This document shows, piece by piece, positions 760-12,753 of a DNA stretch of 14,090 nt. The stretch comes from an uncultured Clostridia bacterium. GTDB lineage: Bacteria > Bacillota > Clostridia > Oscillospirales > Oscillospiraceae. Where the stretch lies: NCBI GenBank assembly GCA_945926565.1, contig CAMELY010000020.1:1-14090 (forward strand). Reading direction: 5' to 3'. Each line of letters starts with the position of its first letter. Position 1 is the stretch's first letter. A model generated the notes under the pieces. It had not been told where the DNA came from, ran no database searches, and worked only from the letters and a program-made list of their open reading frames with translations. The position numbers and the translations under genes were made by a program.

Positions 760-840
760 CAGAGGGGGAGCAATATGGACAAGAGCGGGGGAGAAGGGGA
801 AGGAAGAGATGTCCATAGCGCCGAAAGTAAAAACGGGGGA

Positions 841-869
841 TTGCAGGTTTTTAACGCCTATTGTATAAT
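841..869 (+). promoter_or_regulatory. Promoter for the MATE exporter
   Basis: A perfect TATAAT (864-869) is preceded at exactly 17 bases by TTGCAG (841-846), which keeps the TTG of the -35 consensus. Transcription would start near 876 and leave a leader of about 85 bases before ATG 961. Confidence 0.6.
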
Positions 870-878
870 CAAAACGCT

Positions 879-906
879 GTGCCGCAGGGAAAATGCGGCG
901 CTTTTT
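879..906 (+). terminator. Terminator-like hairpin in the MATE leader (possible attenuator)
   Basis: GTGCCGCA (879-886) pairs with TGCGGCGC (894-901) through eight pairs, one a G-U wobble. The loop is GGGAAAA and five T follow (902-906). It lies downstream of the predicted promoter and upstream of the gene, the arrangement of a transcription attenuator. Two further stems follow: GGGG/CCCC around AAAA at 909-920, and TCTGCC/GGCAGA around TCA at 929-943, the latter directly before the ribosome binding site. The short T tract leaves open that it only weakly terminates. Confidence 0.4.
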
Positions 907-960
907 GCGGGGAAAACCCCATATTGTGTCTGCCTCAGGCAGAGGATGGGAGAGCGCGAG

Positions 961-2325
961 ATGCAAGAGAAACCGATTCGGGAGAATAAAATGGGCGTCA
1001 TGCCGGTGAACCGGCTGCTGCTGTCCATGGCCCTGCCCATGATGCTGTCCATGCTGGTGCAGGCGTGCTACAATATCGTCGACAGCATTTTTGTGGCCAG
1101 ACTGGGGGAGGACGCCCTGACGGCGGTGTCCCTGGCCTTTCCCGCCCAGAACCTGATGATCGCCGTGGGCACCGGCACCGGCGTGGGCATCAACGCCATG
1201 CTGTCCAAGTCCCTGGGAGAGCGGGATCAGAAGACCGCCAACCGGGCGGCCTGCAACGGCGTCTTTCTGGCGTTTTGCTCCATGGCGGCCTTTATGCTGC
1301 TGGGACTGATCGCGGTCCGGCCCTTCTATGCCAGCCAGGTGGCGGAACAGCCCGCCATCCTGGAGTACGGCGTGGAATATCTCACCATCTGCGCCCTCCT
1401 CTGCCAGGGCATGTATCTGCAGTTTGTCTTTGAGCGGCTGCTCCAGGCCACCGGCCATACGGTGGTCAGCATGGTCACCCAGATGACCGGCGCCATCACC
1501 AACATTATTCTGGACCCGATCCTGATCTTCGGCCTGGGCCCCTTCCCCCGGATGGAGGTGGCGGGGGCTGCCGCGGCCACAGTGATCGGCCAGTTTGTGG
1601 GGGCCGCCACCGCCATCGCCCTGAACCATAAATATAATGTAGAGATCCAGGTGACGCCCCGGAACTGCTTCCGGCCCCACGGCCCTACCATCGGGCGGAT
1701 TTATAAGGTGGGCGTGCCCTCCATCATTATGGCCTCCATCGGCTCGGTGATGACCTACGGCATGAACCTGATCCTGGTGACCTTCTCCTCCACGGCGACA
1801 GCGGTGTTCGGCGTCTATTTTAAGCTCCAGTCCTTCTTCTTTATGCCGGTCTTCGGCCTCAACGGCGCCCTGGTGCCCATTATCGCCTACAACTTCGGCG
1901 CCCGCCGCCGGGACCGGATGATCCGCACCATCCAGCTGGGCATTTTGTACGCCATGTGCTTTATGCTCGCCGGACTGCTGATCTTCAACCTGTTCCCGGA
2001 GCAGCTGCTGGGCTGCTTCAACGCGTCTGACTATATGGTATCCATCGGCGTGCCCGCCCTGCGCACCATCTCCTACAGCTTTGTCTTTGCCGGCTTCTGC
2101 ATCGCCTGCGGCACCGTCTTCCAGGCCCTGGGCAACGGGGTCTACTCCATGACCGTCTCCATTGTCCGGCAATTGGTGGTGCTGCTGCCGGCGGCCTGGC
2201 TGCTGGCCCAGACCGGGGAGCTGGACGCCGTCTGGTGGAGCTTCCCCATTGCTGAGGTGGCCAGCCTCTCCCTGTCCAGCTTCTTCCTGGTGCGGATCTA
2301 TCGGAAGATTATCTCCAAGGTTTAA
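961..2325 (+). CDS. MATE-family multidrug/cation exporter
   Basis: This is a 454-residue integral membrane protein, the usual size for the MATE family, which exports drugs and other organic cations in exchange for Na+ or H+. It has about 12 hydrophobic helices in two homologous halves. The N-terminal signature is MLVQACYNIVDSIFVARLG (residues 31-49), in the typical MPVNRLLLSMALPMML context. NIILDPILIFG (181-191) ends the first half; GVYFKLQSFFFMPVFGLNGA (284-303) with PIIAYNFGA (306-314), and WWSFPIAE (425-432), mark the second half. The ATG at 961 was chosen because Firmicute homologues begin with a short polar stretch before NKMGVMPVN. GGGAG (948-952) lies eight bases upstream, and the predicted promoter (841-869) would sit inside a longer reading frame. 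The EamA permease follows after 56 bases and may be cotranscribed. The substrate is not predictable; a MepA-like subgroup is plausible. Confidence 0.9.
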   Translation: MQEKPIRENKMGVMPVNRLLLSMALPMMLSMLVQACYNIVDSIFVARLGEDALTAVSLAFPAQNLMIAVGTGTGVGINAMLSKSLGERDQKTANRAACNGVFLAFCSMAAFMLLGLIAVRPFYASQVAEQPAILEYGVEYLTICALLCQGMYLQFVFERLLQATGHTVVSMVTQMTGAITNIILDPILIFGLGPFPRMEVAGAAAATVIGQFVGAATAIALNHKYNVEIQVTPRNCFRPHGPTIGRIYKVGVPSIIMASIGSVMTYGMNLILVTFSSTATAVFGVYFKLQSFFFMPVFGLNGALVPIIAYNFGARRRDRMIRTIQLGILYAMCFMLAGLLIFNLFPEQLLGCFNASDYMVSIGVPALRTISYSFVFAGFCIACGTVFQALGNGVYSMTVSIVRQLVVLLPAAWLLAQTGELDAVWWSFPIAEVASLSLSSFFLVRIYRKIISKV

Positions 2326-2340
2326 TAGAATGTATACTGA

Positions 2341-2362
2341 CAGCGCCGGTCGGCCGGCGCTG
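2341..2362 (+). other. Intergenic hairpin between the MATE and EamA genes
   Basis: CAGCGCCGG (2341-2349) and CCGGCGCTG (2354-2362) form a perfect nine-pair GC-rich stem around a four-base TCGG loop. It starts 15 bases after the MATE stop codon. No T tract follows on either strand, so it is probably an mRNA-stability or processing element rather than a classical terminator. Confidence 0.5.
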
Positions 2363-2381
2363 AGAAAAGAGAGAATCATTC

Positions 2382-3278
2382 ATGAAAAAAGCAAGCCTGA
2401 AGCAGGTGGCCCTGCTGCTGCTCACCGCCATGATCTGGGGCGGCGCCTTTGTGGCCCAGAGCGTGGGACTGGACTATGTGGGCCCCTTCACCATCAACGC
2501 CGTCCGGTTCCTGATCGGCGGCCTGGTGCTCATCCCCTGCATCGCGGTGATGGAGCGGGTGCAGGACCGGGACGGACAGAAGCGGGATCGGGGCAGCGGG
2601 AGAGATCTGCTGGTGGGCGGCCTCTGCTGCGGGCTGGCCCTGTGCGTGGCCAGCAACCTCCAGCAGATCGGCATCGCCTACACCACCGTGGGCAAGGCGG
2701 GCTTTCTCACCGCCCTCTATGTGGTCATCGTCCCCTTCCTGGGACTGCTGTTTGGGAAAAAGCTGCGGCCGGTGATCTGGGTCTGCGTGGCTCTGGCTCT
2801 GGCGGGACTCTATCTGCTGTGCATGACCGCGGCGGAGGGCCTGGGCAAGGGAGATATTCTGGTGCTGCTGTGCGCCCTGGCATTTTCGGTGCATATCCTG
2901 GTGGTGGATCACTTCTCTTCCAAAGTGGATCCGGTGCGCCTGTCCTGCGTGCAGTTTCTGGTCAGCGGCCTGGTGGCGTCGGTTCCCATGCTGCTGCTGG
3001 AGCAACCCACCGTGTCGGCGGTGCTCAGCGCCTGGCAGCCCATTCTCTATGCCGGCGTCCTCTCCTGCGGCGTGGCCTACACCCTGCAGGCGGTGGCCCA
3101 GCGGGACTGCGACCCCACGGTGTGCTCCCTGGTGCTCTGCCTGGAGTCGGTGTTCTCCGTCCTCTTCGGCTGGCTGCTGCTGGGGCAGGCGCTGACCGCC
3201 CGGGAATGGCTGGGCTGCGCGCTCATGTTCGGGGCCATTGTGCTGGCCCAGCTGCCGGAGCGGAGGCCTGCCGCCTGA
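2382..3278 (+). CDS. EamA/DMT-family permease
   Basis: This 298-residue protein of the drug/metabolite transporter superfamily has about ten transmembrane helices in two EamA repeats, roughly residues 9-146 and 157-290. Diagnostic features are the N-terminal LTAMIWGGAFVAQ (14-26), the NAVRFLIGG segment (39-47), and the C-terminal LCLESVFSVLFGWLLLGQ (252-269), the classic end of the second repeat. The family exports or imports small metabolites such as amino acids; the substrate here cannot be told. The ATG at 2382 follows a purine-rich but weak ribosome binding site (GAGAAAAGAGAG). Together with the preceding hairpin, this may lower its expression relative to the MATE gene. The loop at residues 59-74 is unusually charged (VQDRDGQKRDRGSGRD). 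A terminator lies 100 bases after the stop. Confidence 0.9.
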   Translation: MKKASLKQVALLLLTAMIWGGAFVAQSVGLDYVGPFTINAVRFLIGGLVLIPCIAVMERVQDRDGQKRDRGSGRDLLVGGLCCGLALCVASNLQQIGIAYTTVGKAGFLTALYVVIVPFLGLLFGKKLRPVIWVCVALALAGLYLLCMTAAEGLGKGDILVLLCALAFSVHILVVDHFSSKVDPVRLSCVQFLVSGLVASVPMLLLEQPTVSAVLSAWQPILYAGVLSCGVAYTLQAVAQRDCDPTVCSLVLCLESVFSVLFGWLLLGQALTAREWLGCALMFGAIVLAQLPERRPAA

Positions 3279-3373: not shown

Positions 3374-3416
3374 AAAAAGCAGAGACAAGTTGTACAACTT
3401 GTCTCTGCCATTTTTT
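3374..3416. terminator. 30-bp perfect palindrome with flanking A5/T6 (bidirectional terminator)
   Basis: GCAGAGACAAGTTGT (3379-3393) and its exact reverse complement (3394-3408) abut, giving a potential stem of about 13 pairs closed by a tight TGTACA turn. On the plus strand T6 (3411-3416) follows after two bases. On the minus strand the A5 at 3374-3378 reads as T5. It ends the MATE/EamA block and insulates the antiporter operon. Confidence 0.8.
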
Positions 3417-3515: not shown

Positions 3516-4010
3516 ATGCTGATTGCCTTTTTTCTGCTGTGGATCATTCTGTGCGGAGATCTGACGGCGGAGATTGTCATCTTTGACCTGATTGTCACCG
3601 GTGCGGTCTACTGGTTCACCTGCCGGTTCTGCCGGTGGAGCTTTGCCAGAGAGAAGACCGTCTTCCGGCTGCTGGTGCCGGGGATTCAGTATGTGGGCCT
3701 GCTGCTCCGGGAGATTATCAAGGCCAATCTGGCCATGCTGAAAATTCTGCTGGGAGGCCGGCTGAAGCAGCAGGTGCAGCCCCTGCTCATCACGGTGCAG
3801 GTGCCCCTCAAGACGAACATCGCCAAAATGCTCCTGGCCAACGCCATCACCCTGACCCCGGGCACCATCACGGTGGAAAACCGGGGGACAGAGTATGTGG
3901 TGCACTGTATCAACCCGGATTTCTCCCGGGATGTGGACTGCTCCGCCCTGGTCGAGGCGCTGGAGCGGATGGAGGCCATTGCGGCCCAGGGAGAGGAGGA
4001 GACTGCCTGA
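3516..4010 (+). CDS. mrpE: Mrp antiporter subunit E (MrpE/MnhE; MbhA-like)
   Basis: This 164-residue protein matches the usual MrpE length. MrpE is a small membrane subunit of Mrp Na+/H+ antiporters and of the ion-translocating arm of membrane-bound hydrogenases. Two hydrophobic helices occupy about residues 2-35, and another lies around 50-70. The soluble C-terminal part carries the family signature LLANAITLTPGTITVE (106-121), followed by the VVHCINPDF strand (128-136). The ATG at 3516 was chosen because AGGAGG ends five bases upstream. An in-frame upstream ATG at 3456 would add 20 polar residues encoded by the leader hairpin. The stop codon overlaps the start of mrpF by one base (TGATG), so translation is probably coupled. 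It is the first gene of a ten-gene operon. Confidence 0.93.
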   Translation: MLIAFFLLWIILCGDLTAEIVIFDLIVTGAVYWFTCRFCRWSFAREKTVFRLLVPGIQYVGLLLREIIKANLAMLKILLGGRLKQQVQPLLITVQVPLKTNIAKMLLANAITLTPGTITVENRGTEYVVHCINPDFSRDVDCSALVEALERMEAIAAQGEEETA

Positions 4011-4309
4011 TGTTTCAGCTGGTGACCAAAATTTATCTCATCGTCCTGGGCCTGTGCGTCCTGGGCGCTCTGATCTACATCATTACCAGCCGGCACTTTA
4101 CCGACCGGCTGGTGGGCGTCAACCTGATCTCCACCCTGATTCTCAGCGTGATTCTGGTGCTCAGCCTGTATCTGGACAGCACCTCCATTCTGGATATCGA
4201 CATCATCTACGCCCTGCTCAGCTTCCAGGCGGTGGTGGTGCTCAGCCGGATTCTCCGGGTGCGGATGCTGGCGGAGCTGAAAAAGAGAAAGGGAGGCGGT
4301 GCGCAATGA
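4010..4309 (+). CDS. mrpF: Mrp antiporter subunit F (MrpF/MnhF; MbhB-like)
   Basis: This 99-residue membrane protein has three predicted helices (about 6-26, 35-55 and 60-83) and a short basic tail (KKRKGG). The conserved MrpF features are TDRLVGVNLISTL (31-43), matching the R-x-x-x-x-D/N-L-I-S-T pattern at the start of helix 2, and LDIDIIYALLSFQ (61-73) in helix 3. MrpF packs with MrpE and MrpG at the cation-translocating end of Mrp and Mbh complexes. Its start overlaps the mrpE stop and its stop overlaps the mrpG start in an ATGA arrangement (4306-4309), indicating coupled translation. Confidence 0.9.
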   Translation: MFQLVTKIYLIVLGLCVLGALIYIITSRHFTDRLVGVNLISTLILSVILVLSLYLDSTSILDIDIIYALLSFQAVVVLSRILRVRMLAELKKRKGGGAQ

Positions 4310-4656
4310 CAGGCATGCAGCTGCTGGGCTCTGTGATTATGGGGGCCGGCGTTCTGATTATGGTGATTGTCACCCTGAGCGTCTTCCGGATGGACTTTGT
4401 CATCAACCGGATGCACGTCACCGCCATTGCCGACACCCTGGGCACCCTGCTCATCTTCATCGGCGGCGCCCTGTGCGAGGGCATCCACTGGGTAGATCTC
4501 AAGCTGATCCTCATCCTGGCCCTCCAGTGGTTCACCGTGCCGGTCTGCGGCCACATGATCGTCCAGCTGGAGTACGCCGTGGTGGGCGACCTGAAGGAGC
4601 ACTGCGAGGCGGATCTCTCCGATCCGGGGCGCAAAGAGGGGAAGGAGGAGCACTGA
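4306..4656 (+). CDS. mrpG: Mrp antiporter subunit G (MrpG/MnhG; MbhC-like)
   Basis: This 116-residue protein has three hydrophobic helices (about 7-27, 40-57 and 65-88) followed by a charged C-terminal tail. The MrpG hallmark is FVINRMHVTAIADTLGTLLI (31-50), equivalent to the RLHA-x-x-x-x-x-TLG motif of the family. The start ATG lies in the ATGA overlap with mrpF, with GGGAGGCGGT just upstream as ribosome binding site. The stop TGA (4654-4656) shares one base with the next start. Together with E and F it completes the three small subunits in the E-F-G order typical of Mbh-type clusters. Confidence 0.9.
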   Translation: MTGMQLLGSVIMGAGVLIMVIVTLSVFRMDFVINRMHVTAIADTLGTLLIFIGGALCEGIHWVDLKLILILALQWFTVPVCGHMIVQLEYAVVGDLKEHCEADLSDPGRKEGKEEH

Positions 4657-4973
4657 TGGCGTTTTTTGAGGTTTTGCTGCTGGTGTTTCTGGTGGCCTGC
4701 GCGCTGACAGCGGTGCTGGTGCGCAGCACAATGATCACCATTTTGACCTACATGGGCTTCAGCATTGTCATGTCGGTGGTCTGGCTGATTCTCCAGGCCC
4801 CGGATCTGGCCATTACCGAGGCCGCCGTGGGAGCGGGCGTGAGCACGGTGCTCTATTTCCTCACCCTGATGAAGATCCGGGAGCTGAAGGAGAAAGAGGA
4901 TCTGGAGGAGCGCCAGCGCCAGGAGGCCTGGCGCCGTCAGACAGAGGAGGAGACCGACCATGAGCAGAAGTGA
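4656..4973 (+). CDS. MbhD-like subunit (DUF4040; MrpA C-terminal fragment)
   Basis: This 105-residue protein has three hydrophobic stretches (about 4-22, 25-45 and 50-72). The conserved QAPDLAITEAAVGAGV (47-62), including D50 and E55, is the signature of the DUF4040/MbhD domain. In classical Mrp systems that domain is the part of MrpA beyond the antiporter-like region; here it is a free-standing gene, as in membrane-bound hydrogenase clusters. Acidic residues of this domain are thought to line the Na+ path at the interface with neighbouring subunits. The last 33 residues are strongly charged (KEKEDLEERQRQEAWRRQTE) and may form a cytoplasmic helix, which is long for the family. It starts within the mrpG stop and overlaps the next gene by 14 bases. 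Confidence 0.88.
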   Translation: MAFFEVLLLVFLVACALTAVLVRSTMITILTYMGFSIVMSVVWLILQAPDLAITEAAVGAGVSTVLYFLTLMKIRELKEKEDLEERQRQEAWRRQTEEETDHEQK

Positions 4974-5865
4974 CCGCAGCGGCTGGCGCAAATTCTGCGC
5001 CTGGGTTGACGGCGAGGAGTGGTGCGCAGCGCCCTCCGCGCCTCAGCACCCTGTCTCCGCCGGCCGGGAGCCGGAGCGGGAGGTCTCTGCCTTCGAGGCC
5101 TACCAGCAGAGCCGCCGGCTGATGCAGGCCGTCGGCGCCCTGTTCTGCATCACCCTGGCGGTGGTGCTCGCCCTGGTGGTGGTGCATCTGCCCCCCTTCG
5201 GCGACCCCGCCAATCCCACCAACAACGAGGTGTCCCGCCGGTACATCGAGCAGGGCATTGAGGAGACGGGCTCTGCCAACCTGGTGGGCGGCATGATTTT
5301 GAGCTACCGTGTCTTCGACACCTTCGGCGAGTCCAGTGTCCTCTTCCTGGCCGCCTCCTGCGTCACCATCCTGCTGCGCCGGGATCGGAAAAATACGACA
5401 CCTCAGGCCCTGCGGCAAATGGCTCACGAGGAGAGAACAGACCGGAAGGACAAGGACGTGGTGCTGCGCACGGCGGTGCTGCTGCTGATGCCGGTGTCCA
5501 TCATGGTGGGCTTCTATGTCATGCTCTTCGGGCACCTGTCCCCCGGCGGCGGCTTCTCCGGCGGCAGTATCCTGGGCGGCGGCATGGTGCTCTATGCCCG
5601 CACCTTCGGCAGTAAGAGCGTCCAGCGGTTTTTCAATGAGCACATCTATCACCTGGTCAAGGTGGTCTGCCTCATGTGCTACGGCCTGATTCTCATCTAC
5701 TATGTCTTTACCGGCGCCAACGGTCTGAATAACCATATCTGGCTGGGCATTCCCGGCCATATCCTCAGCAGCGGCATCATCATGCCCATCAACGTTCTGG
5801 TGGGCTTTGAGGTGGCCTGCACCATCTACGCATTCTATGCCCTGTTCAGCGAAGGAGAGGTGTGA
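4960..5865 (+). CDS. mrpB: Fused MbhE-MrpB (MnhB) subunit
   Basis: This 301-residue protein joins two subunits that are separate in Mbh complexes. Residues 1-54 are a polar cytoplasmic N-terminus. Residues 56-140 match MbhE (end of MrpA): a helix at 56-76, then NEVSRRYIEQGIEETGSANL (89-108) and LSYRVFDTFGESSVLF (114-129). A charged linker (140-166) leads to a MnhB domain with VVLRTAVLLLMPVSIMVGFY (167-186), the diagnostic GHLSPGGGFSGGSILGGG (191-208), and three further helices to residue 296. MrpB contributes to the Na+ channel region of the complex. The ATG at 4960 lies inside the preceding gene, with GAGGAGG at 4944-4950. The polar N-terminus of about 50 residues has no obvious counterpart in the families I know. 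Group-2 Mrp systems fuse MrpA to MrpB, so this resembles the C-terminal half of such a fusion. Confidence 0.88.
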   Translation: MSRSDRSGWRKFCAWVDGEEWCAAPSAPQHPVSAGREPEREVSAFEAYQQSRRLMQAVGALFCITLAVVLALVVVHLPPFGDPANPTNNEVSRRYIEQGIEETGSANLVGGMILSYRVFDTFGESSVLFLAASCVTILLRRDRKNTTPQALRQMAHEERTDRKDKDVVLRTAVLLLMPVSIMVGFYVMLFGHLSPGGGFSGGSILGGGMVLYARTFGSKSVQRFFNEHIYHLVKVVCLMCYGLILIYYVFTGANGLNNHIWLGIPGHILSSGIIMPINVLVGFEVACTIYAFYALFSEGEV

Positions 5866-5868
5866 GAT

Positions 5869-6258
5869 ATGAGTGAGCTTTTTTCCACCCTGTGGACCCA
5901 GCGGTTCATGATTACCGCCGTCCTTTTGTTCTGCATTGGGGCCTTCAGCCTGGTTTTTAACCCCAACCTGATCAAAAAGCTCATCGGCTTTGACCTGATG
6001 GACGGCGCGATTTATCTCATGCTGACCAGCGCCGGCTATATCCGGGGCCGGGTGGCCCCCATTGTCACCGACTTCTCCGCAGCTCCGTCCGTGGAGACCT
6101 ACATCAACCCCATCCCCACCGGCCTGGTGCTCACCGGCATCGTGGTCTCGGTCAGCGTCACCGCCTTCGCCCTGGCCCTGGTGGTGCGCATCTATCAAAA
6201 GTACCACACCGTCTACCTGGACGTCATTATGGCGACCATGAAGAAGGGGGTGGACTGA
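5869..6258 (+). CDS. mrpC: Mrp antiporter subunit C (MrpC/MnhC, NuoK-like; MbhG-like)
   Basis: This 129-residue protein has three transmembrane helices (about 12-30, 39-57 and 82-108), the size and layout of MrpC and its complex I homologue NuoK. The strongest signature is NPIPTGLVLTGIVVSVSVTA (80-99), equivalent to the DPLPQALVLTAIVI motif of MrpC, with T84 and G85 in place of the usual Q-A. FSLVFNPNLIKKLIGFDLMD (26-45) is the first loop and the start of helix 2. NuoK-like subunits sit between the Na+-handling subunits and the first antiporter-like subunit. The gene starts three bases after the mrpB stop; AGGAGAGGTG overlaps that stop as ribosome binding site. Confidence 0.9.
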   Translation: MSELFSTLWTQRFMITAVLLFCIGAFSLVFNPNLIKKLIGFDLMDGAIYLMLTSAGYIRGRVAPIVTDFSAAPSVETYINPIPTGLVLTGIVVSVSVTAFALALVVRIYQKYHTVYLDVIMATMKKGVD

Positions 6259-7761
6259 GTGCTGCCCTATTATCAGCACATCCCCTTTTTCAGCATCGTC
6301 CTGCTCATGATCTGCGGCATTCTCACCAGCGTGGTGCGCAGCGGCCGGGTGGCCCTGCGCATCCACCTGGGGGCGGTGCTGGCCCTGCTGGGGGCCAATC
6401 TGGTGCTGCTGGCCAATGTGCTGCCCCGGCAGGAGCGGTTTACCTACGCCCTGGGCATCGTCTCCCACCCCTATGGCAACGAGCTGGTCTGCGGGCCCCT
6501 GGAGGCCACGCTGGCGGTGGCCTTTCTGCTGGTCATGGCCATGAGCGTCCTGGGAGGACGGGATGGCGTCTTTGAAGACGTGGAGCCGGGGAAGCAGAAC
6601 CTGTATTTCGTCATGTGCGACCTGATTATGGCCAGCCTCCTGGCCATGATCTACACCAACGACGCCTTCACCGCCTACGTCTTTATTGAGATCAACACCA
6701 TCGCCGCCTGCGCCCTGGTCATGGCCAAGGACAGCGGCGCCACCTTGGTGGCCACCATCCGCTATCTGATGATGAGCCTGCTGGGCAGCGGCCTGTTCCT
6801 CCTGGGCCTCACCTTCCTCTATCACATCACCGGCCACCTGCTCATCATCGACATCCACGACCAGGTGCAGCAGCTGGCCGCCACCGGGGCCTATCAGATC
6901 CCCCTGACTGTGCTCATGGGCATGATGGCCCTGGGCCTGGGGCTCAAGAGCGCCCTGTTTCCCAACCACACCTGGCTGCCGGACGCCCACGGCAGCGCCA
7001 CCACCGCCTCCAGCGCCATCCTCTCCGGCCTGGTGCTCAAGGGGTATGTGGTACTGCTCATCAAGTGCATCTTCTGCATTTTCGGTGAGGAGGTCTTTGC
7101 CGCCTCCCATGTGGGGGACGTGCTGTTGGTCATGGGCGCCCTGGCCATGGTGGTGGGCTCTGTGAAGGCGATTCAGGAGACCCACATCAAGCGGATGATC
7201 GCCTACTCCACCGTGGCCCAGATCGGCTACATTTACCTGGGCCTGGGCATGGGAGGCGCCGCCGCGGCGGTGGCCGCCATCTATCAGATGCTGGTGCACG
7301 CCTTTACCAAGCCCATGCTCTTCCTCTGCGCGGGTGAGCTGGCGGAGGCCTCCGGCCACCGGAAGCAGATGTATTACCTCCGGGGGGCGGGCCACCGGGC
7401 CAAGCTGGCCGGCGTCGGCTTTACGGTGGGCGGCCTCTCCATGATAGGCCTGCCCCTGCTGGGCGGCTTTGCCGTCAAGTTCTATCTGGCGGACGCGGCC
7501 CTCTCCGGGAGCTGGAAGATGTGGGTGGCCCTGGCCGCCCTGGCGGTATCCAGCGTGCTCAACGCCCTCTACTATCTCCCGGCCATCATCCAGATCTGGA
7601 GCAAGGCCCAGCCGGGGGAGAATCTGCCCCAGCTGCCGGTAAAGCGGCCCAGCCTGGCCTTTGTGGTGGCCGTTCTGGTGCTGGGGGCGGGCACTGTTCT
7701 ACTGGGCGTCTGCTGCTCCGGCACCGGGGCGCTGCTCAGCCTGGGCCTGAGCCTGCTTTGA
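6259..7761 (+). CDS. mrpD: Antiporter-like subunit 1 (MrpD/NuoM type; MbhH-like)
   Basis: This 500-residue, roughly 14-helix proton-translocating subunit belongs to the proton-antiporter family shared with NuoL/M/N of complex I. All the buried charged residues of an active half-channel pair are present: E144 in TM5 (AYVFIEINTIA), K230 in TM7 (GLGLKSALFPNHTWLPDAH), K261 in TM8 (LVLKGYVVLL), H347 and K351 (VHAFTKPMLFL), and K407 in the broken TM12 (GGFAVKFYLADAA). The HTWLPDAHGSA motif is typical of MrpD/NuoM rather than NuoL. It starts with GTG immediately after the mrpC TGA, with a G-rich AAGAAGGGGG upstream. Position after C matches MbhH. It is expected to contact MrpC on one side and a further antiporter-like subunit on the other. 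Confidence 0.92.
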   Translation: MLPYYQHIPFFSIVLLMICGILTSVVRSGRVALRIHLGAVLALLGANLVLLANVLPRQERFTYALGIVSHPYGNELVCGPLEATLAVAFLLVMAMSVLGGRDGVFEDVEPGKQNLYFVMCDLIMASLLAMIYTNDAFTAYVFIEINTIAACALVMAKDSGATLVATIRYLMMSLLGSGLFLLGLTFLYHITGHLLIIDIHDQVQQLAATGAYQIPLTVLMGMMALGLGLKSALFPNHTWLPDAHGSATTASSAILSGLVLKGYVVLLIKCIFCIFGEEVFAASHVGDVLLVMGALAMVVGSVKAIQETHIKRMIAYSTVAQIGYIYLGLGMGGAAAAVAAIYQMLVHAFTKPMLFLCAGELAEASGHRKQMYYLRGAGHRAKLAGVGFTVGGLSMIGLPLLGGFAVKFYLADAALSGSWKMWVALAALAVSSVLNALYYLPAIIQIWSKAQPGENLPQLPVKRPSLAFVVAVLVLGAGTVLLGVCCSGTGALLSLGLSLL

Positions 7762-7774
7762 GGAGGGGAGAGAG

Positions 7775-9217
7775 ATGTTTCATTATCTGCTGTTCCTCGC
7801 CATTCTCCTGCCCGTTTTGGGCGGAATTGCCATGGCGCTGGTCAAACCCCGGCATAACCAGAATATCCTGTTCATCGAGGTGCTGGGGGTGACCCTGGCC
7901 TGTTGCGTGGGCACCGCCCTGGCCGGCACCGGCCTGGCCGGCGTGCTGGAGCTGGGGCCCTTCGCCTTCCGCTTCGGGGCGGACCGGCTGGGTGAGCTGT
8001 TTGCCATTCTGTTTTCTGCCTTGTTTCTGCTGGCCGGTATCTTTTCCCTGTCCTACAACGAGCACGATGAGAAGTCCGGTCGGTTCAACGGCTTTTTCCT
8101 GCTCACCCTGGCCGCCCTGCTGGGGCTGAGCTACGCCCAGAACCTGTTCACCTTCTACTTCTTCTACGAGTGCATGACCCTGCTCTCCATGCCCCTGGTC
8201 TTCCACGAGGGGACGGACGAGAGCATGAAGGCCGCCCTCCAGTATCTGGGCTACTCCCTCTTCGGCGCGGCCCTGGTGCTCTTCGGCTTCTTCTTCGCCG
8301 GGCAGTACTGCGACACCACCGATTTTCTGGCGGGGGGCACCTTCAACGCCCAGGGAATGGCCAACCTGTCCATGGCGCTGATCGCCGCCTTCTGCCTGCT
8401 GCTGGGCTTCAGCTGCAAGGCGGGCATGCTGCCTTTGCAGCAGTGGCTGCCGGTGGCCCATCCCGTGGCCCCCGCTCCCGCCTCCGCCGTCCTGTCGGCC
8501 ACCATCACCAAGGCGGGTGTGCTGGGCATCATCCGGTCGGCCTACTACGTCTTTGGAACCGAGCTGCTCCGGGGCACCTGGGTGCAGACGGTTCTCATCC
8601 TGCTGGCTCTGCTGACCATCTTTACCGGCTCTATGCTGGCCTATCGGGAGCGGCTGCTCAAGCGGCGGCTGGCCTGGTCCACTGTGAGCCAGGTGAGCTA
8701 TGTCCTCTTCGGCCTCTTCCTGTTCAGCGGGGCGGGCCTGGCCGGAGGACTGCTCCAGGTGGTGTTCCACGCTGCTTCCAAGACTGCCCTCTTCCTCTGC
8801 GCCGGAGCCATCATTCACCAGACGGGCAAGACCAAGGTCTATGAGCTCACCGGCCTGGGCCGGCAGATGCCGCTGGTCTTCGCCTGCTTCACCTTCGCCT
8901 CCCTCTCCCTGGTGGGCATTCCCCCCTTTGCCGGCTTTGTCAGCAAGTGGAGCCTGGCCACCGAGGGCATTCTGAGCCTGGGCGGGCTGGGCATCGCCGG
9001 AGCGGCGGTGCTGCTGGTCTCCGCTCTGCTGACGGCGGGGTATCTGTTCCCCATTGCCATCCACGGCTTCTTTGACCGGGGAGAGTTCCCCAAGGGCCTG
9101 GAGCCGGACGGGCGGATGACGGCGCCTCTGGCGATTCTGGCCCTGGCCCTGCTGGCCCTGGGCGTCGTGACCGGGCCGCTGAACACGGTGATCGCTGGCA
9201 TCACCGCGGGACTCTGA
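7775..9217 (+). CDS. Antiporter-like subunit 2 (MrpD/NuoL-M family)
   Basis: This 480-residue membrane protein of about 14 helices belongs to the same proton-antiporter family as its neighbour. The key residues are conserved: E132 in TM5 (YFFYECMTLLSMP), K215 in TM7 (GFSCKAGMLPLQQWLPVAHP), K246 in TM8 (ATITKAGVLGIIR), H332 and K336 (FHAASKTALFL), and K391 in TM12 (GFVSKWSLATEG). A functional proton path is therefore likely. QQWLPVAHPVAPAPASAVLS (222-241) is the loop that varies most between paralogues. It begins 14 bases after the preceding stop, with GAGGAGGGGAG as ribosome binding site. The second half closely resembles the next gene product (GLGRQMP, SLVGIPPFAGFVSKW), pointing to tandem duplication. 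The exact orthology to NuoL, NuoM or MrpA cannot be settled by eye. Confidence 0.88.
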   Translation: MFHYLLFLAILLPVLGGIAMALVKPRHNQNILFIEVLGVTLACCVGTALAGTGLAGVLELGPFAFRFGADRLGELFAILFSALFLLAGIFSLSYNEHDEKSGRFNGFFLLTLAALLGLSYAQNLFTFYFFYECMTLLSMPLVFHEGTDESMKAALQYLGYSLFGAALVLFGFFFAGQYCDTTDFLAGGTFNAQGMANLSMALIAAFCLLLGFSCKAGMLPLQQWLPVAHPVAPAPASAVLSATITKAGVLGIIRSAYYVFGTELLRGTWVQTVLILLALLTIFTGSMLAYRERLLKRRLAWSTVSQVSYVLFGLFLFSGAGLAGGLLQVVFHAASKTALFLCAGAIIHQTGKTKVYELTGLGRQMPLVFACFTFASLSLVGIPPFAGFVSKWSLATEGILSLGGLGIAGAAVLLVSALLTAGYLFPIAIHGFFDRGEFPKGLEPDGRMTAPLAILALALLALGVVTGPLNTVIAGITAGL

Positions 9218-9230
9218 GGAGGTGGGAGCG

Positions 9231-10706
9231 ATGTCACAAGTTTGGATTCTGGCGGCCATCCTCCTGCCGCTGCTCGCGGGAGCCCTGCTGCTGCTCCGGC
9301 CGGTGGAGAACCGGCGGACTCACAATGGCCTGGTCATGGCGGTGAGCCTCGTTACCAGCCTGCTGATCGGCGGACTGCTGCTCTCCCGGCCGGAGGGGAC
9401 GCTGGAGCTGGGCTCCATCCATCCGGCGCTGACCTTCGCCTTCCGGGTGGACAGCCTGTCCCTGGTGTTTCTGGCCATCCTGGCGGTGCTGTGGCCGATT
9501 GCGGTGCTCTACTCCTTTGAGTACATGAGCCACGAGCATGAGGAGAACCGATTCTTCGGCTTTTTCACCATGACCTACGGGGTGGTGACCGCCATCGCCA
9601 CGGCGGCCAACCTGTTCACCCTCTATTTCTGCTACGAGTTGCTCACCCTGTGCACCCTCCCCCTGGTGATGCATGAGATGGACGGCAAGGCCCGGCACGC
9701 GGGCAAGACCTACATCCTCTACTCCATGACCGGCGCGGCCCTGGCCTTTGTGGCCATGGCGGCGGTGGCCCACTACGGCAGCCTGGACTTTGTGCTGGGG
9801 GGCAGTCTGAACGCCGCCGCGGCGGCAGGGCAGGAGAACCTGCTCCGGCTGTTCTTCCTGCTGGGCTTTTTCGGCTTTGGCGTCAAGGCCGCCGTCTGGC
9901 CGGGGCACCTGTGGCTGCCCACCGCCTCGGTGGCCCCCACGCCGGTCTCCGCCCTGCTTCACGCGGTGGCGGTGGTCAACGCCGGCGTCTTCGCCATCCT
10001 GCGGCTGACCTATTACAGCTTCGGCACCGGGCTGCTCCAGGGCAGCTTTGCCCAGTGGGTGATGATGGGGGCCTGCATCCTGACCATCGTCTTCGGCTCC
10101 GCCATGAGCTGGCGGCTGCAGCACCTGAAGCGGCGGCTGGCCTACTCCACGGTGAGCAATCTGAGCTACATCCTGCTGGGCGCCTCGGCCATGACCGGGG
10201 CGGGCCTGGGGGCGGCTCTGCTGCACATGGCGGCCCACTCCGTCTTTAAAATCATCCTCTTCTTCTGCGCCGGCGCCATTTTGTGCCAGACGAAACGGGA
10301 ATATGTCTTCCAGCTCCCCGGCCTGGGCCGGCGGATGCCGGTGACCTTCACCGCTTTCGCCCTGGCCTCTCTGGGCCTCATCGGTATCCCGCCCTTTGCC
10401 GGCTTTTTCAGCAAGTGGGCGATTGCCCAGGCGGCGGTGGAGCTGAACCATCCGGTGGCCTGGCTGGGCGCCCTGGCCCTGGCGGTCTCCGCCTTCTTCA
10501 CCGGCCTGTATCAGGTCATGGTGCTGGTGCCCGCCTTCTTCCCCACCCGGGAGCAGGCGGCGATTGCGGCGGAGAACCAGTCCTTTACCGAGGCGGGCTG
10601 GCAGATGAAGACCGCCCTCGTCCTGCTCATGCTGCTGGCTCTGGCCATCAGCTTTGGAGTGGGCGGCCTGAGCGACGTCCTGAGCCGCTGCGCCCAGGGC
10701 CTGATG
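9231..10706 (+). CDS. Antiporter-like subunit 3, NuoL/MrpD family, TM8 Lys replaced by Asn (stop codon 10707-10709)
   Basis: This 492-residue protein has about 14 helices. It retains E136 in TM5 (YFCYELLTLCTLP), K219 in TM7 (GFGVKAAVWPGHLWLP), H336 and K340 (AHSVFKIILFF), and K395 in TM12 (GFFSKWAIAQAA). In TM8 the segment LLHAVAVVNAGVFAILR (242-258) has N250 where paralogues 1, 2 and 4 have Lys. The H244 with PTPVSALLHA is the pattern of NuoL and MrpA, and E. coli NuoL is likewise non-basic at that site. The ATG at 9231 was preferred over in-frame GTG 9222 because AGGAGGTG (9217-9224) is six bases upstream and would be inside the gene otherwise. The preceding stop overlaps this ribosome binding site. 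Residues 301-397 are strikingly similar to subunit 2. A role in the same complex is inferred from the operon. Confidence 0.88.
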
Positions 10707-10722
10707 TGAGGAGGTGGCTGAA

Positions 10723-12690
10723 ATGCTGATTGCGCTGCTGATTCTGCTCCCTGTGGCGGGGGGCATTGCCGCCGGACTGCTGGGCCGCCGGAATAAGCGG
10801 AGCGTGAGCCGCCGGGTGACGGCGGCCACCCTCGCTGTGGAACTGGCCCTGAGCCTGGGCCTGCTGACCCAGGTGGGAAAGTGCTGGACGCTGCCGCTCT
10901 GCGGTCGGGGCATCTCCTTCGCCGTCACCGGACTGCAGGCGGTGCTGGGTGTGCTGGCCGCATTGCTGTGGGCGGTCTCCGGCCTGGAGAGCCGGGAGGA
11001 GCTGCTGGGGGATCACCACGCCTGGCGGTATGACTTCTTCCTGCTGCTCACCCTGGGGGCGATTGAGGGGGTATTCCTCTCCGGTGACCTCTATACCACC
11101 CTGGTCTTCTTTGAGGTCATGAGCTTCACCTCCTTTGTCTGGGTGATTCATAACGGCACGGAGCCCGCCAAGCGGGCTGCCGGGAGCTATCTCACCTACG
11201 CGGTGGCGGGGGGACTGGTCTCGCTCATGGGCCTCTTCCTGCTGGATACCGCCCTGGGTACCCTCTCCTTTGCCGAGCTGCCCGCCGCTGTGGCCGCCTA
11301 TGAGGGCAACAAGGCCCTGATCTACGTCGCCGGCGGGCTGAGCATGGCCACCTTTGCCGCCAAGGTCTGCATGTGGCCGCTGCACACCTGGCTCCCCGGC
11401 TCCTATACCCAGGCCCCGGCGCCTGCCACGGCGCTGCTCTCCGGCATCGTCACCAAGGCAGGCATCTTCGGCATCTTTGCCATCACCGACAAGATTTTCC
11501 TGGCCGACGCCGCCTGGGGCAGGGTGCTGCTCTTCTTTGCCGTGATTACCATGCTCTGGGGCGGCTTTATGGCCCTGTGCCAGACCAACCTCAAGACGCT
11601 GCTGGCCTATTCCTCCATGTCTCAGATCGGCTTCATTCTCACCGGCATTGCCATGCAGGCTCTGCTGGGGGAGGAGGGAGGCATGGCCGCCTGGGGCAGT
11701 GTTCTCCACCTGACCAACCACGCCTGGATCAAGCTGATCCTCTTCCTGGCCGCCGGGCTGCTCTTTCGGACGGTGGGCAGCCTGGAGCTGGACGATCTTC
11801 GGGGCTTCGGACGGAAGAAGCCGCTGCTGCTGGTCATCTTCCTCTGTCTCGCTCTGGGCGTCATGGGCGTCCCCCTGTTCAACGGCTACATCTCCAAGAC
11901 GCTGCTCCATGAGAGCATTGTGGAGTATACCGGCCTGCTGGAGGGAGCGGGCCAGTCTGCCGGGCTGTACCATGCGGTTGAGTGGCTGTTTCTCATCGCC
12001 GGCGGCATGACGGTGGCCTATATGACCAAGGTGCTGGTCTGCCTCTTTGGGGAGGAGAACGAGAGCGCTGCCGCCCAGCGGGAGTTTGACCGGACGCCGG
12101 TGAATGCCAGCCCGCTGGTGCTGACCGTGCTGACGGTGTGCGCCCTGCTCTGCCCGGTGCTGGGCATTACGCCCCACCTCACCATGGAGGGCATTGCCCG
12201 GTTTGCCCAGGACTTCTTCTCCGAAGAGGGCCTGGTAGAGGCGGTGGCTTACTTCTCCCTGACCAACCTGAAGGGGGCGGTGATCTCCCTGGCCATCGGC
12301 GGGGTGCTCTACTTCGCCTTTGTGCGCACCCTGGTGCGGCGGAAAACGGGCATGGGCGTGCAGTACCGGAATCCCTGGCCGGCCGCCCTCAGCCTGGAGG
12401 ACGGCCTGTACCGGCCGCTGCTCATGGTCTGGCTGCCCTTTGTGGGGGCGGTGCTGGCCCGGTTCGGGGCGAGCATCTTCTCCTGGCTGGTGGCGGCGGG
12501 GAACCGGCTGCTCTTCTTCCGGGCGACGCCGACCGTAACGCCTGCCGAGGACGAGCGGTTTGCCAAATACGACCCGGATCCCCAGGGCCGCCGGGGCATC
12601 TCCGGCACCCTGGCCTTCGGCCTGGCCATGTTCGGGCTGGGGTATATGGCCATGATGATCTATATTTTGGTTCGGCTGGCCCTCGGCTGA
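10723..12690 (+). CDS. Antiporter-like subunit 4, long form with C-terminal extension (NuoL-like)
   Basis: This 655-residue subunit is the last gene of the operon. The antiporter core (1-450) has E131 in TM5 (LVFFEVMSFTSFVW), K214 in TM7 (TFAAKVCMWPLHTWLPGSY), K245 in TM8 (GIVTKAGIFGIFA), H333 and K337 (NHAWIKLILFL), and K392 in TM12 (NGYISKTLLHESI). About 200 residues follow the core. They contain helices near 462-482, 515-536, 564-590 and 627-652, with a polar stretch NPWPAALSLEDGLYRPLL (550-567). Distal NuoL subunits of complex I carry a C-terminal lateral amphipathic helix plus an extra TM helix, so this could be the terminal subunit of the arm; that is inference. ATG 10723 is preceded by AGGAGGTG (10709-10716), which would lie inside the gene if the in-frame GTG at 10714 were used. 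The stop is followed within 20 bases by a shared terminator hairpin. Confidence 0.88.
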   Translation: MLIALLILLPVAGGIAAGLLGRRNKRSVSRRVTAATLAVELALSLGLLTQVGKCWTLPLCGRGISFAVTGLQAVLGVLAALLWAVSGLESREELLGDHHAWRYDFFLLLTLGAIEGVFLSGDLYTTLVFFEVMSFTSFVWVIHNGTEPAKRAAGSYLTYAVAGGLVSLMGLFLLDTALGTLSFAELPAAVAAYEGNKALIYVAGGLSMATFAAKVCMWPLHTWLPGSYTQAPAPATALLSGIVTKAGIFGIFAITDKIFLADAAWGRVLLFFAVITMLWGGFMALCQTNLKTLLAYSSMSQIGFILTGIAMQALLGEEGGMAAWGSVLHLTNHAWIKLILFLAAGLLFRTVGSLELDDLRGFGRKKPLLLVIFLCLALGVMGVPLFNGYISKTLLHESIVEYTGLLEGAGQSAGLYHAVEWLFLIAGGMTVAYMTKVLVCLFGEENESAAAQREFDRTPVNASPLVLTVLTVCALLCPVLGITPHLTMEGIARFAQDFFSEEGLVEAVAYFSLTNLKGAVISLAIGGVLYFAFVRTLVRRKTGMGVQYRNPWPAALSLEDGLYRPLLMVWLPFVGAVLARFGASIFSWLVAAGNRLLFFRATPTVTPAEDERFAKYDPDPQGRRGISGTLAFGLAMFGLGYMAMMIYILVRLALG

Positions 12691-12703: not shown

Positions 12704-12753
12704 GGAAAAAACGCCCCTGCGGTGCATGCACAAGCACACCGCAGGGGCGTTCG
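12704..12753. terminator. Shared convergent terminator (15-bp stem)
   Basis: AACGCCCCTGCGGTG (12710-12724) pairs perfectly with CACCGCAGGGGCGTT (12737-12751) around a 12-base loop. On the minus strand six T (from A12706-12711) follow, making a strong intrinsic terminator for the tRNA unit. On the plus strand only two T follow, so it may end the antiporter operon less efficiently or mainly protect its 3' end. Confidence 0.8.

Follow-up and report, generated by a model that had tools for sequence, protein, structure and literature searches.

A putative stand-alone Group 3 Mrp-type antiporter operon with four antiporter-like subunits in an uncultured Clostridia bacterium and its relatives

The DNA studied here (the window) comprises the complete contig CAMELY010000020.1 (C20), 14,090 nucleotides from an uncultured Clostridia bacterium of the Oscillospiraceae, whose assembly (GCA_945926565.1) totals 1.44 Mb in 202 contigs and is 76.5% complete. 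On its forward strand, positions 3516 to 12690 are occupied by ten genes in the order E, F, G, MbhD, MbhE/MnhB fusion, C, D1, D2, D3 and D4, the last four coding for antiporter-like subunits (APLS). The original prediction, made from the letters alone, had proposed this series, with three antiporter subunits following the first one, and comparison with Pfam confirmed all ten genes, each of which exceeds the curated cut-offs; Proton_antipo_M is matched by four proteins, at 170-180 bits each. Neighboring genes overlap or are separated by at most 13 bases throughout, and they are therefore likely to form one operon, read as a single transcript.

The small subunits come first. MrpE (MbhA/MbsA, 3516-4010) matches MNHE (PF01899) with 84.3 bits, MrpF (MbhB/MbsB, 4010-4309) matches MrpF_PhaF (PF04066) and MrpG (MbhC/MbsC, 4306-4656) matches PhaG_MnhG_YufB (PF03334). 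They are followed by MbhD (4656-4973, PF13244), corresponding to the first part of the MrpA C-terminal region, by a single protein in which MbhE (PF20501) and MnhB (PF04039) are fused in the architecture of MbsE (4960-5865), and by MrpC (NuoK/MbhG/MbsG, 5869-6258), which matches Oxidored_q2 of the MrpC type (PF00420). The APLS all match PF00361: D1 (6259-7761), of the MbsH/MrpD type, has 500 amino acids and a GTG start; D2 (7775-9217) has 480 amino acids; D3 (9231-10709) carries in addition a NuoL-type N-terminal domain (PF00662); D4 (10723-12690) ends with transmembrane helix (TM) 15, a lateral amphipathic helix and TM16. The starts of G (4306), D3 (9231) and D4 (10723) were moved after reading the gene junctions; GAGGAGG precedes both D3 and D4, and for D3 an ATG was chosen, the limit of the open reading frame (ORF) being the GTG at 9222.

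The cluster combines the small subunits E, F, G, B and C, all above Pfam cut-offs, has no full-length mrpA and encodes MbhD and MbhE separately from the APLS. These are the traits of Group 3 Mrp antiporters which, as outlined in parts of PMC8415708 and PMC5703873, lack mrpA in the strict sense, may contain several copies of mrpD and include stand-alone forms. With the stand-alone Mrp of Pyrococcus furiosus and the cyanobacterial clusters of this group, the operon shares E, F, G, B, C and MrpD-type genes; it differs from them by its four APLS, by the MbhE-MnhB fusion and by an Asn at the position of MrpF Asp35. The Group 3 examples given in the relevant passages have one to three APLS, judged by gene letters (three in mrpFGBCDDAE and mrpCD1D2EFGAB, PMC5703873), a Nitrospira locus excepted. 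Group 1 Mrps (Bacillus, Anoxybacillus) have two APLS and carry at the C-terminus of MrpA the MbhD/E region which is here encoded by separate genes; MrpF Asp35 and the MrpC histidines also distinguish them from the system described here.

The operon had been interpreted as the membrane arm of a Mbh-type hydrogenase without its hydrogenase. The likeness to Mbh stands as far as gene order is concerned; identity with Mbh does not, since D1 and the fused E-B protein are closer to Mbs. MbsE covers both the MbhE and the MnhB parts, according to a section of PMC8415708, and the closest solved relative of D1 is MbsH (6u8y_H, 145.5 bits). With MBS the operon shares A-B-C-D-E(fused)-G-H plus H', and MbsH', as described in part of PMC7684303, has TM15, a lateral helix and TM16 as D4 does. 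The same part of that source assigns one H+ subunit to MBH and two to MBS, the latter joined to a redox module, whereas the window contains four APLS and none of the mbhI-N genes was seen within it. The same genome encodes elsewhere, on contig C19 (1926-10523 of locus L006), a hydrogenase that has an arm to itself. This Mbh-type operon is arranged as large subunit, hypA, hypB, E, F, G, D, E, B, C, an APLS of 646 amino acids, M, J and N. The large subunit and J were confirmed via PF00346, PF00374 and PF01058; E, G, D, E/B, C and the APLS were assigned by similarity, and F, M, N, hypA and hypB were read from the sequence, while no K gene was identified in the operon. The APLS seems to include the MbhI region, and hypA and hypB lie between the large subunit and E. 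The assembly as a whole encodes five PF00361 proteins, four in the window and one on C19, and its single PF01058 match is located inside the C19 operon. A Mbh operon stripped of its hydrogenase was rejected on the basis of this separate operon and of the position of D1-D4, apart from MbhH, in the tree reported below; the arm is better described as Group 3 Mrp/MBS-like.

The probable product of the operon is a Group 3 Mrp-type antiporter which stands alone, exchanges a cation for protons and contains four APLS. Related loci were collected from the genus (14 loci) and from a wider scan, by retaining the best 80 of at least 577 relatives; removal of duplicates (L017, L018, L020, L023 and L024, sharing sequence with L043, L045, L044, L046 and L048, respectively) left 89 distinct loci. 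The predicted neighborhood recurs across Clostridia: the ten-gene set is complete at 79 of these loci, and the remaining 10 are cut at 81 bases or less from a contig end. By stricter completeness rules, applied before duplicate removal, 80 of 94 loci were complete. The operon is also carried by named isolates, including Clostridium sp. MD294 strain ASF356. Among the whole-operon loci, the contig ends within D4 in L082 and L117, and D3 of L025 and D2 of L029 are split in two frames; C of L026 is similarly split, and assembly error and decay were not told apart in these three cases. Clustering of 640 flanking ORFs revealed no general neighbor, the commonest one, trmB-like by sequence, being found at 23 of the 89 loci. 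The distance matrices of C and D1-D4 are correlated (Spearman 0.88-0.93, computed from the 52 sets in which none of these genes is incomplete), a result which vertical descent alone could equally produce.

Homologues of Mbh L, J, M and N, NuoE, NuoF, FeFe hydrogenase and formate dehydrogenase were found at none of the 89 loci, nor in the window, the searched stretches reaching up to 10 kb past the match and often less. This agrees with the proposal of a four-APLS unit without a redox module, for the kinds searched, NiFe included; the outcome that would have spoken against it, homologous loci always beside redox modules, was not seen. Redox genes lying just outside the view were considered and rejected, because the downstream side is taken up by tRNA-Ser genes and rpoC in the opposite orientation, and none of the searched families turned up in relatives whose flanks extend further. 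In ten assemblies, picked from the records of the relatives, PF00361, PF01058 and RnfC were counted over the whole genome. Nine of them contain exactly four PF00361 proteins (spread over two contigs in G723); the tenth has five, the extra one being located on the contig which bears the single PF01058 match of that genome. Since the nine assemblies contain no other PF00361 protein, the four APLS have no other such complex to join, and derivation of two of the four from unrelated complexes was therefore not seen. PF01058, typical of NuoB, MbhJ and HycG, is absent from nine of the ten, including the complete chromosome of strain ASF356, and RnfC was found in all ten. Within the genus, PF00346, PF01058 and PF00374 each occur in 28 of 32 genomes, and G027 (96% complete) and G030 (93%) contain the arm and no match to any of the three.

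Additional APLS are likewise known from complex I with four or five pumps (Nitrospira 2M, rhizobial green complex I and Complex_I_3 of Manganitrophaceae), as reported in part of PMC9040806, and a two-APLS unit is described as extendable to four in complex I-like enzymes (a section of PMC7419157). Those are redox enzymes, which in Complex_I_3 and 2M have a lateral-helix insertion not seen here, and the PF01058 protein of complex I is lacking in the nine assemblies and in G027 and G030. A search of protein clusters with D4, in which 5331 of 7999 scored clusters passed 1e-60, gave, among the 120 relatives listed, names such as hydrogenase-4 component B, complex I subunit 5, NADH dehydrogenase and sodium:proton antiporter. 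The first three suggest respiratory enzymes, yet nine of the ten assemblies examined lack the NuoB/HycG-type protein, and such names may mislead metabolic models.

The survey was widened to 20 loci from 19 of the 22 further genomes of the order which gave a match, and to 20 of the 52 further phylum genomes which did so. Twelve of the order loci have four APLS, a single one has three and 7 are cut; among the twelve, one has D4 in two frames and L203 is without E, F and G (in G100, MbhD to D4 are found from 6173 onwards and none of the three was detected upstream). Four phylum loci have four APLS (L231 and L232 in another order) and 11 have three, while L222 has two, L225 two and a second pair, L219 about five, L224 is redox-linked and one is cut. 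Of the 20 phylum loci, 16 are arms with two to four APLS for which no redox genes were detected within the arm or next to it, L216 excepted. Four APLS had been regarded as unusual: the number is confirmed, but it is less out of the ordinary than supposed, in view of these arms, of Group 3 Mrps with multiple mrpD and of the Nitrospira locus. Multi-MrpD Group 3 Mrps and four-pump complexes I are already in print; a search of the open-licence literature for a stand-alone Mrp treated as a four-APLS complex, or for Mrps of Lachnospiraceae, found no description of this family. Surprising features are how widely the four-APLS arm occurs, the Asn in MrpF and the unlengthened D4 brace.

A maximum-likelihood tree was built from 107 APLS, drawn from the ten-gene arm family, the phylum relatives, solved structures and E. 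coli NuoL/M/N. D1, D2, D3 and D4 form one clade each, all with bootstrap 100. D2 and D3, which are 41% identical, are sisters with the same support, and their nearest outgroup is the second APLS of the three-APLS locus L217 (support 81; FastTree 0.85). Deep nodes are weak, the D4-type clade being placed beside MbsH', NuoM, MrpA and NuoL at 66. D4 as a disguised MrpA was rejected, since it has a MrpA/NuoL-like fold and yet forms its own clade, adjoining them only at that support. Taken together, the tree and the series of two to four APLS identify the fourth subunit as a duplicate of the third: D2 is the product of a duplication of D3.

Channel residues were mapped by alignment to those named for MbsH and MbsH' in a section of PMC7684303, with helix numbers assigned by homology, and counted only in uncut genes whose alignment begins close to the gene start (n 61-88, window included). 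The Glu of TM5, the Lys of TM7, the Lys or His of TM8, the His of TM11 and the Lys of TM12 are retained in all sequences of D1 (88/88), D2 (69/69) and D4 (61/61). In D3, where the TM8 position is a His, they are retained in 82/82, save the Lys of TM12 (81/82, one Arg). All four APLS thus keep the proton-channel residues. Cation-path residues were mapped in the same way to the roles assigned in section 8 of PMC7419157, which describes a Group 1 Mrp. Equivalents are preserved for P114e (Pro of MrpE, 86/86), H131e (85/86), D29f (invariant D32 of MrpF), P86g of MrpG (88/88), E706a (Glu55 of MbhD, 89/89) and D792a and E796a (Asp120 and Glu124 of the E-B fusion, 90/90 each).

The genomic unit is well supported; the mechanism is proposed by homology, and assembly into a single complex, the spatial order of the subunits, antiport activity and the cation are predicted. 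D1 would be placed against a cation module formed by the small subunits (C, MbhD, E-B, F, G, E), with D2 and D3 next in the row and D4 closing the far end, its lateral helix reaching back. Protons would enter through the channels of the four APLS, coupled along a central charged axis, and a cation (Na+ or K+) would be driven out through the path formed by F, MbhD, C and E-B. Proton and cation gradients would thus be interconverted, the supply in these fermenters being Rnf or, where present, Mbh/Ech. With four channels, each cation might cost a larger number of protons; the high H+/Na+ ratio suggested at first is unsupported so far. A more specific version, put forward tentatively and with the odds against it, is that of a 'low-gear' Mrp, in which four coupled channels, together with a cation site readjusted by Asn in place of MrpF Asp35 and by the Asp/Tyr pair of MrpC, might allow cation export from a weak proton-motive force at the cost of more protons per cation; it would have arisen from a three-APLS form whose middle subunit was duplicated, and separately from the four-pump complexes I. 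Since redox-free arms range from two to four APLS and L217 provides a close three-APLS outgroup, the dependence of stoichiometry on subunit number is testable by antiport assay.

Several observations weigh against a stand-alone four-APLS antiporter of this kind: substitutions at cation-path residues, the length of the D4 helix, redox genes at outlying loci, a patchy distribution, gaps in the supply of a gradient and a published locus of comparable make-up. The last is that of Ca. Nitrospira alkalitolerans, where mrpA-G is accompanied by two NuoM/NuoL-like genes downstream of mrpD, both of which its authors took for additional mrpA/mrpD-like genes (PMC7784846); by gene count this Mrp locus may have four APLS, if its mrpA is full length, although a complex with four APLS is not a topic of the relevant passages. 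It is likened to the operon by gene description only, and differs from it in having mrpA and in belonging to an aerobic nitrite oxidiser. Within the genus, the fused E-B protein scores above 250 bits in just 15 of the 32 genomes, that of the window included. RnfC exceeds the cut-off in 22 of the 32, G027 among them; it was not found in the incomplete genome of the window, nor in G025 and G026, all of which have Mbh, and G030 has neither RnfC over cut-off nor Mbh/Ech families, which leaves it with no known gradient source.

The substitutions concern MrpF, MrpC and MrpG. The equivalent of MrpF Asp35 is Asn38 in 86/86 sequences, window included. In passages of PMC7419157 this Asp is called invariably conserved in Mrp, and its change to Leu inactivated the complex; D35 substitutions, highly detrimental in E. 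coli, were milder in B. subtilis, for which Glu and Asn were the only replacements made, and transport may therefore survive the presence of Asn. At the histidine sites of MrpC, Asp45 (89/90) and Tyr49 (87/90) are found instead, and the His of MrpG is kept in 81/88 and replaced by Gln in 7/88. Asn38 may alter the cation or the gate. The substitutions in MrpF and MrpC favor the view that another ion is carried or that transport runs in another direction (K+, another cation, a cation-driven proton exporter), or that the substrate is different altogether. In line with it, the order and phylum loci have Asn in MrpF in 32 of 38 sequences (window and C19 counted), from arms with two, three and four APLS, and Asp in the hydrogenase-linked C19 operon and the redox-linked L224. 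This pattern, Asn in most redox-free arms, has exceptions, Asp being kept also in L223 and L225, with Gly in L227 and Ala in L228. Most of the Mrp cation path is, however, invariant, and this alternative is considered unlikely.

The Mrp-type reading had been extended by the expectation of an unusually long arm, which, if braced as in complex I, is unsupported so far. The core of the lateral amphipathic helix of D4, residues 561-600 of the 658-residue ORF counted from 10714, is 40 residues long in the window, which equals the median of the family (range 38-62, n=65, including four duplicates), and is without the 26-residue insertion which is reported for Complex_I_3, with a similar one in 2M, in part of PMC9040806. 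The helix not being lengthened, the brace may fail to span all four APLS. This fits an arrangement as two smaller assemblies sharing the small subunits, for instance a D1+D4 Mrp and a D2/D3 alternative, used under different conditions; mutual duplication of D2 and D3 and the existence of two- and three-APLS relatives point the same way. The small subunits are nevertheless encoded in a single set, and all four APLS genes, with channel residues kept in each, occur at the 79 whole-operon loci, which makes two assemblies distinctly unlikely. The lateral helix was also considered as a ruler of APLS number and rejected, as tail lengths past mid-TM15 do not track the APLS count: they are 129 residues in the window, 107 in E. 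coli NuoL, 114-255 in D4-type subunits of three-APLS loci, 67 in the two-APLS L222, and 178 and 259 in the four-APLS L231 and L232. In three-APLS relatives L220, L221 and L229, the D4-type tails after TM15 contain tandem repeats of 23-25 residues, about the length of the insertion of extra-pump complex I.

The remaining alternative is that the arm serves as the membrane half of a redox pump and attaches to a redox module (of FeFe-hydrogenase/NuoEF type, formate dehydrogenase or Mbh/Ech) whose genes lie elsewhere. It draws on a few relatives. L216 (3271-15500), an outlying member, is without D3, and hence has three APLS; a NuoE-NuoF-FeFe-hydrogenase set lies 0.5 kb away from its MrpE gene in divergent orientation. 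The more distant L219 (1-19901, from a single-contig genome) comprises D1, a D1-like APLS and three D4-like paralogues, with a Cache-domain protein among them; further upstream, past one D4-like and two other genes, the same strand encodes a molybdopterin oxidoreductase and a FeFe hydrogenase. The oxidoreductase frame follows a Fe-S frame across a stop, and possibly represents a selenoprotein formate dehydrogenase. In L224 the arm has L/J/M attached; its E-B protein is also fused, for which reason the fusion was rejected as a family hallmark. A 4Fe-4S protein is encoded upstream in L229, and a weak match occupies the same place in L230. Against these stand the lack of the searched redox genes near the arm at all 89 family loci and in the window, within the examined stretches, and the genomes without PF01058 or, as G027 and G030, without PF00346, PF01058 and PF00374, FeFe hydrogenases elsewhere in the genomes not having been searched for; docking is judged the least likely of the three alternatives.

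The borders of the operon had been placed at a strong terminator upstream and a stem downstream. Between the upstream EamA-family gene and MrpE, a stem of 13 pairs followed by a T-run resembles an intrinsic terminator (3379-3408, plus strand; a consensus match only), in agreement with the first border. The downstream stem of 18 pairs (12709-12752, minus strand) is real and begins 18 bases past the last stop; its T-run is on the minus strand and therefore suits the convergent transcript of the tRNA and rpoC genes. Two tRNA-Ser genes and then rpoC, named from sequence, on the minus strand lie beyond it. A leader hairpin before E was rejected (fold z -0.52). No cation riboswitch was detected at Rfam gathering scores in the window and 20 further loci (L021, L022, L030, L049, L056, L063, L074, L084, L092, L100, L122, L200, L205, L217, L220, L226, L229, L230, L231 and L232), a result neutral either way. 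Upstream of the operon, positions 775-3278 contain MATE (MatE)- and EamA-family transporter genes, and MATE/EamA-type genes, named by sequence, are likewise upstream in five close relatives (L017-L021). In one subgroup of the genus (L026-L030), E is preceded, on the same strand and with short gaps, by genes for a small protein, identified in L028 as PAC_bac (PF21758), and for UbiX-/UbiD-like decarboxylases, named by sequence.

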